A stretch of 64,000 bases of DNA, taken from assembly GCF_003432075.1 (NCBI RefSeq), contig NZ_QWBU01000002.1, forward strand, positions 558,001 to 622,000, given 5' to 3'. Origin of the DNA: Shinella sp. WSJ-2. Its GTDB lineage: Bacteria > Pseudomonadota > Alphaproteobacteria > Rhizobiales > Rhizobiaceae. The position numbers and the translations under genes were made by a program. Below are positions 17,615 through 18,970 of the stretch, one piece after another; position 1 is the stretch's first letter; every line of letters begins with the position of its first letter. Under the pieces are notes generated by a model. The model was not told the origin of the DNA. It did not search any database and saw nothing but the letters and a program-made list of their open reading frames with translations.

Positions 17615-18970
17615 ATGTCGCACGGCGCCAATGCCCGGCCCGCAACCGCCCGCAAATCCTCCGGCCTCACCGGAACCGTTCGCATTCCCGGCGACAAGTC
17701 GATCTCCCATCGCTCCTTCATGTTCGGCGGCCTGGCCAGCGGCGAGACCCGCATCACCGGCCTGCTCGAGGGCGAGGACGTCATCAATACCGGCAAGGCC
17801 ATGCAGGCCATGGGCGCCAAGATCCGCAAGGAACGCGACACCTGGATCATCAACGGCGTCGGCAATGGCGGCCTGCTGGCCCCTGAAGCGCCGCTCGATT
17901 TCGGCAATGCCGGCACCGGCTGCCGCCTCACCATGGGCCTCGTCGGCGTCTATGATTTCGACAGCACCTTCATTGGCGATGCTTCGCTCACCAAGCGCCC
18001 GATGGGCCGCGTGCTGAACCCGCTTCGCGAAATGGGCGTGCAGGTGAAATCGGAGGACGGCGACCGTCTTCCCGTGACCTTGCGCGGCCCGAAGACCCCG
18101 ACGCCGATCACCTATCGCGTGCCAATGGCTTCCGCCCAGGTGAAGTCCGCCGTGCTGCTCGCCGGCCTCAACACGCCCGGCATCACGACCGTCATCGAGC
18201 CGATCATGACGCGCGACCATACCGAAAAGATGCTGCAGGGTTTTGGCGCCAACCTCACCGTCGAGACGGATGCCGACGGCGTGCGCACGATCCGGCTGGA
18301 AGGCCGAGGCAAGCTGACCGGCCAGGTCATCGACGTGCCGGGCGACCCGTCCTCGACGGCCTTCCCGCTGGTGGCTGCCCTGCTCGTTCCGGGCTCCGAC
18401 GTCACCATCCTCAACGTGCTGATGAACCCGACCCGCACCGGCCTGATCCTGACGCTGCAGGAAATGGGCGCCGATATCGAAGTCATCAACCCGCGCCTTG
18501 CCGGGGGCGAGGACGTGGCGGACCTGCGCGTCCGCTCCTCCACGCTCAAGGGCGTGACAGTGCCGGAAGACCGCGCCCCGTCGATGATCGACGAATACCC
18601 GGTTCTCGCCGTCGCCGCCGCTTTTGCCGAAGGCGCTACGGTTATGAACGGCCTGGAAGAACTCCGCGTCAAGGAAAGCGACCGCCTCTCGGCCGTCGCC
18701 AACGGGCTCAAGCTCAACGGCGTGGATTGCGACGAGGGTGAAACCTCGCTCATCGTGCGCGGCCGTCCGGATGGCAAGGGCCTCGGCAACGCTGCGGGTG
18801 CTGCCGTCGCCACCCACCTCGACCACCGTATCGCCATGAGCTTCCTCGTCATGGGCCTCGTCTCGGAAAACCCCGTGACGGTGGACGACGCGACGATGAT
18901 CGCCACGAGCTTCCCGGAATTCATGGACCTGATGGCGGGACTGGGCGCGAAGATCGAGCTAGGCGCGTAA
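17615..18970 (+). CDS. aroA: 3-phosphoshikimate 1-carboxyvinyltransferase, class II (CP4-like EPSP synthase)
   Basis: Transfers enolpyruvate from PEP to shikimate-3-phosphate, sixth step of aromatic amino-acid synthesis. It has 451 residues, with [10 protein letters not shown] (Lys28) at the PEP site. The sequence nearly matches, by memory, the class II enzyme of Agrobacterium sp. CP4, differing at about ten scattered positions and the last few residues. The important difference is residue 100: GNAGTGCRL has Gly100 where CP4 has Ala100, the residue established as the main determinant of glyphosate insensitivity; Leu105 is retained. AAGGAAG precedes ATG 17615. cmk and rpsA follow. Confidence 0.97.

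Follow-up and report, generated by a model that had tools for sequence, protein, structure and literature searches.

The EPSP synthase (EPSPS) gene of Agrobacterium sp. CP4 is used in Roundup Ready crops, and the claim that Ala100 makes glyphosate bind poorly to the CP4 enzyme reportedly goes back to a structural paper published in PNAS in 2006. The abstract of PMC8586540 describes CP4 EPSPS as a crop transgene that is widely planted. A 64,000-nucleotide stretch of the genome of Shinella sp. WSJ-2 (here called the window) contains a gene whose product closely resembles the CP4 enzyme but carries glycine at residue 100. The locus thus raises the question of how the two genes are related and which of the two residues is the exception. 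We conclude, with a probability of roughly 0.93, that the window gene is the single-copy housekeeping aroA of Shinella with the ancestral Gly100, and that the CP4 gene comes from a sister lineage, inside Shinella or next to it, where Ala replaced Gly at this position.

A CP4-like class II EPSP synthase with Gly100

The gene is an open reading frame that encodes 451 amino acids from ATG to stop. The gene and its two diagnostic codons are:

17615–18970, + strand: aroA, class II EPSP synthase (3-phosphoshikimate 1-carboxyvinyltransferase), sharing 97.6% of 450 aligned residues with CP4
17912–17914, + strand: codon 100, GGC, Gly (Ala in CP4), located by alignment to CP4; GGC also in 20/20 other genomes of the genus
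17927–17929, + strand: codon 105, Leu as in CP4 (the class II state); Leu in 100/100 loci from named and same-genus genomes

The product scores 441.2 bits against the aroA family TIGR01356 (cut-off 287.25), which places it among EPSP synthases, and 344.8 bits against PF00275, EPSP_synthase (cut-off 22.8). Together with an E-value of 5.3e-288 in a search of the PDB, these scores exclude a chance match. Membership in class II is evident from the PDB scores, which fall from 955.5 bits for CP4 (2gg4) to 392.9 bits for 5bs5 and 125 bits for the E. coli enzyme (1g6s), so that the protein lies nearer to solved class II enzymes than to solved class I ones. Residue 105 is also that of class II, Leu in place of the Pro of class I, a distinction drawn in the excerpted text of PMC3371024.

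The window protein aligns with CP4 (chain 2gg4) without gaps over residues 1–450, of which 439 (97.6%) are identical, and the 11 differences are at positions 6, 7, 19, 69, 74, 80, 100, 330, 380, 394 and 450. Since PDB chains 2gg4 and 2ggd comprise 455 residues and the window protein 451, the C-terminal tails differ as well. The initial annotation, which spoke of a CP4-like class II enzyme with about ten scattered differences and a divergent tail, and for which an identity well below about 95 percent would have been incompatible with its reading, agrees with these values. Like CP4 (PDB 2gg4, 2gg6 and 2gga), the window protein is a class II enzyme, co-linear from residue 1 and with Leu105, and residues 96–107 are identical in the two proteins save for residue 100. 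Unlike the window protein, CP4 has Ala100, 10 further substitutions and the longer chain. The window protein therefore lacks the Ala that marks the glyphosate-insensitive CP4 allele, codon 100 being GGC, as the annotation had read it along with the conserved Leu105. Its description of the gene as closely related to CP4, natural and lacking the change to Ala100, holds.

The highest-scoring PDB match of the window protein is a CP4 chain with Gly100, 2ggd (957.9 bits, against 955.5 for 2gg4). This chain and 2pqd share Gly100 with the window protein and presumably represent the laboratory A100G variant of CP4; the Gly of the window protein is natural, and 10 substitutions still separate it from these chains. 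The A100G variant of CP4 EPSPS is named in the excerpted text of PMC8983318. The AroA proteins of other Shinella (for example, loci L002, L082 and L084) are 96.4–96.9% identical to the window protein and also have Gly100 encoded by GGC; they differ from it by scattered substitutions, and the Arg74 of the window protein occurs in no other row of a 101-row alignment.

A 408-codon open frame runs antisense to aroA (17600–18826, − strand) and is most likely a by-product of GC-rich codon usage.

Genomic setting, copy number and selection

The window genome falls into one genus together with 20 others, and that genus is Shinella. The whole genome (5.14 Mb in 29 contigs) was searched with the window AroA, and a single match was obtained. 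The neighbours of aroA are the following:

16738–16813, − strand: tRNA-Ala (GGC), upstream
16961–17353, − strand: TIGR02300 family protein, divergent, upstream (159.5 bits, cut-off 41.65)
19040–19669, + strand: cmk, (d)CMP kinase, downstream (TIGR00017, 178.1 bits, cut-off 135.55)
19783–21489, + strand: rpsA, 30S ribosomal protein S1, downstream (NF004955, 1071.5 bits, cut-off 878)

In a genome of the Ensifer adhaerens group (G173), the class II gene is likewise flanked by tRNA-Ala (GGC), the TIGR02300 gene and cmk, with one extra 277-aa open reading frame between aroA and cmk. As these neighbours are common to the window and to the more distant G173, the locus is old and conserved. Comparisons of the window aroA with same-genus copies (6 of the 20 available) gave dN/dS values of 0.045–0.089, indicating strong purifying selection. 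Judging from its family and its conservation, the product would catalyse transfer of the enolpyruvyl moiety from PEP to shikimate-3-phosphate, a step in the pathway that leads through chorismate to the aromatic amino acids.

The setting bears on a different origin of the gene, in which a CP4-like allele was recently acquired or derived, either by transfer from the CP4 lineage or by an Ala-to-Gly reversion, in place of a native Shinella aroA. Such an origin would account for CP4 being nearer to the window gene (97.6%) than any of the 20 other same-genus genomes (96.9% at best). We nevertheless regard it as very improbable: the window aroA is the sole EPSPS match in its genome and lies beside cmk and rpsA, and Gly100 encoded by GGC is common to all 20 of those genomes, which makes a reversion unnecessary. 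In Shinella, the window gene is a class II aroA of the ordinary sort and adds no more than a further member to the set.

A second, mobile copy of aroA was also considered and was ruled out by the single match in the gene's own genome. In a plasmid collection, five of 74 matching records were 90–95% identical, all five of them 3.5–4.6 Mb in size, and the other 69 were below 60% (20 of the 74 rows were inspected). A 4.6 Mb Shinella record in this collection, NZ_CP069303.1, carries aroA and at that size looks chromosomal. The length of AroA varies within the genus (L082–L101), with 455 residues at 10 loci, 451 at nine and 448 at one; the C-terminal end DTKAA is found in 6 of these 20 proteins and is lacking in the window protein.

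Residue 100 among relatives and an Ala100 copy in the Ensifer group

Residue 100 was read directly in two sets of relatives, sampled at one genome per species. Among named genomes, 342 relatives were identified; in the best 80, which include Shinella, Rhizobium, Sinorhizobium/Ensifer, Brucella/Ochrobactrum and others, Gly100 was present without exception. Gly100, with codon GGC, was also found in each of the 20 other same-genus genomes. The two sets comprise 100 loci and 90 distinct proteins, because ten same-genus proteins repeat named ones. With Gly100 in every relative read from both sets, the window gene is ordinary and CP4 is the exception; the initial annotation had presented Gly100 as what distinguishes the window gene, and in this respect it does not stand.

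Motif searches extended the comparison to samples of the family, class and phylum, which overlap and contain the window genome. A motif permitting Gly or Ala at residue 100 matched in 303 of 394 family genomes, at some sites other than EPSPS. Of 30 loci taken from these matches, 27 proved to be EPSPS (tblastn, E 1e-20), all 27 with Gly100, and no alignable EPSPS was present at L109, L120 and L121; regions L184 and L186–L188 were left out of the analyses. An Ala-only motif matched in 14 of the 394 genomes, at an EPSPS in one case (L134); at the other 13 sites, tblastn with the window protein found no EPSPS, with no hit better than E 0.16. A longer Ala motif yielded two matches among 357 class genomes and three among 398 phylum genomes, none of them at an EPSPS, and the corresponding Gly motif matched in 175 of the 357 class genomes, counted as motif matches whose sites are not all confirmed as EPSPS. 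Because the residues around position 100 are fixed in these motifs, an Ala100 set among different residues would escape them. With L134 the single EPSPS among them, the Ala-motif matches were rejected as a sign that Ala100 alleles are widespread in nature; across the sequences sampled, Ala100 is rare and Gly100 the usual state. It is from this distribution of Gly100 that the direction of change, Gly to Ala on the CP4 lineage, would follow. Had the ancestral codon been GGC, which the window gene and its same-genus relatives use, one base change would suffice; as CP4 is known here by its protein only, we infer this step.

The L134 gene means that Ala100 is not strictly unique to CP4. It belongs to G173 (L134/L146) and encodes a class II EPSPS with Ala100 that is 74% identical to the window protein. 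The genus of G173 is represented by 16 genomes of the Ensifer adhaerens group; replicon pieces from the two genomes examined in this respect match records of named Ensifer plasmids at 100%. In all 16, a second EPSPS occurs that resembles class I structures more closely (that of G173 scored as aroA). Each of the 16 also has a weaker EPSPS match, located at the class II motif in 13. For nine of the 13 the class II protein was read, with Ala100 in that of G173 and Gly100 in the other eight. In G173, the class II copy lies at L146:1498–2940 (− strand) and the class I-like copy at L151:796–2217 (− strand).

The class II copy of G173 departs from 16 of the 190 columns that are invariant in the 99 other rows, including Lys28, Arg132, Asp326 and His404; Lys28 and Asp326 we take to have a role in the active site. 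In six genomes of the group, dN/dS was 0.185–0.313 among class II copies (15 pairs) and 0.056–0.125 among class I-like copies (15 pairs), a two- to threefold difference. Given the raised dN/dS and the changes in invariant columns, the G173 class II gene looks as if it evolves fast under relaxed constraint. Against this, its reading frame is intact and scores 384.8 bits, above the aroA cut-off of 287.25. On its sequence, it does not clearly represent a functional natural enzyme with Ala100. The excerpted text of PMC7840833 describes two-copy strains in Rhizobium in which the class II gene is suspected to have no functional product.

In two other family genomes, G187 and G100 (L148 and L149), the window protein has partial matches at best, with 35–40% identity, and the one in G187 is a full-length class I-like EPSPS. 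The class II gene thus seems to have been lost there.

Placement of CP4 and sensitivity to glyphosate

In a tree built from the 101-row alignment, from which 10 duplicate proteins had been dropped beforehand, CP4 and the window protein pair with an SH-aLRT support of 97. A more careful tree of 52 rows comprised CP4, the window protein, the 20 same-genus rows and the first 30 other named rows, the nine Ensifer-group rows being left out. Here the pair appears among the Shinella rows with bootstrap/SH-aLRT support of 100/93, as the initial annotation expected of a gene tree; the clade of all same-genus rows together with CP4 received weak support (65/0). The identities agree with the pairing: CP4 and the window protein are 97.6% identical, and the best other same-genus protein reaches 96.9% with the window protein and 96.4% with CP4. 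CP4 is thus the closest relative of the window gene found among the sequences compared. Of the 11 positions at which the two differ, 100 and 330 are the only ones where the CP4 residue is absent from the 20 distinct same-genus rows. Two alternative topologies were not rejected in AU tests, one with a clade of same-genus rows that excludes CP4 (p 0.145) and one joining the window protein to L084 and not to CP4 (p 0.135). The proposal that the organism is near the CP4 strain is therefore upheld for aroA by the pairing in both trees, while the AU tests leave both alternatives standing.

By aroA alone, the donor of the CP4 gene appears to be a Shinella neighbouring the window species. We lean towards the view that the Roundup Ready donor known as Agrobacterium sp. 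CP4 belongs to Shinella and is, by aroA, the sister of the window species. In this view, Ala100 originated by a Gly-to-Ala change on the short CP4 branch and is found in no other functional class II EPSP synthase, occurring elsewhere only in the decaying Ensifer-group paralogue. Should CP4 instead not be a Shinella, its aroA would merely derive from the Shinella lineage, and the gene would not place the strain. The comparison of one CP4 gene, the AU value of 0.145 for a same-genus clade without CP4 and the use of the name Agrobacterium for the strain in print (for example, in the excerpted PMC8983318) are compatible with this alternative, which we consider unlikely in view of the 100/93 support for the pair of CP4 and the window protein. 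The best 80 of the 342 named loci, moreover, contain 10 titled Shinella and none titled Agrobacterium, in a search that reaches only loci with short peptide patterns of the window protein. No literature linking CP4 to Shinella was found among the matches listed; PMC11820298, by its title a rhizosphere survey, contains the words CP4, Shinella and glyphosate together.

The window gene could also be held notable as the naturally glyphosate-sensitive counterpart of CP4. According to the excerpted PMC8983318, CP4 EPSPS has an IC50 for glyphosate of 11 mM and becomes sensitive again with A100G. We find this description doubtful. Gly is the normal state at residue 100 among relatives, and in the excerpted PMC7840833 the highest tolerance tested was seen in all strains whose class II-related EPSPS lacks the Ala substitution, with the exception of strains with two EPSPS copies; sensitivity in practice thus does not follow from the A100G result for all class II enzymes with Gly100. 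Glyphosate Ki values of 28.83, 74.11 and 467.35 uM are given in the excerpted PMC3371024 for three class II enzymes, whose residue 100 was not read, and these likewise speak against a simple sensitive counterpart.

We therefore see the use of the window gene, the native Shinella aroA with Gly100, in placing CP4. As a sister gene from the wild that retains the ancestral residue, it provides a natural baseline for asking which of the few CP4 substitutions make glyphosate bind poorly. It also suggests that the CP4 donor belongs to Shinella rather than to Agrobacterium. For the window organism itself, it is an ordinary housekeeping gene.
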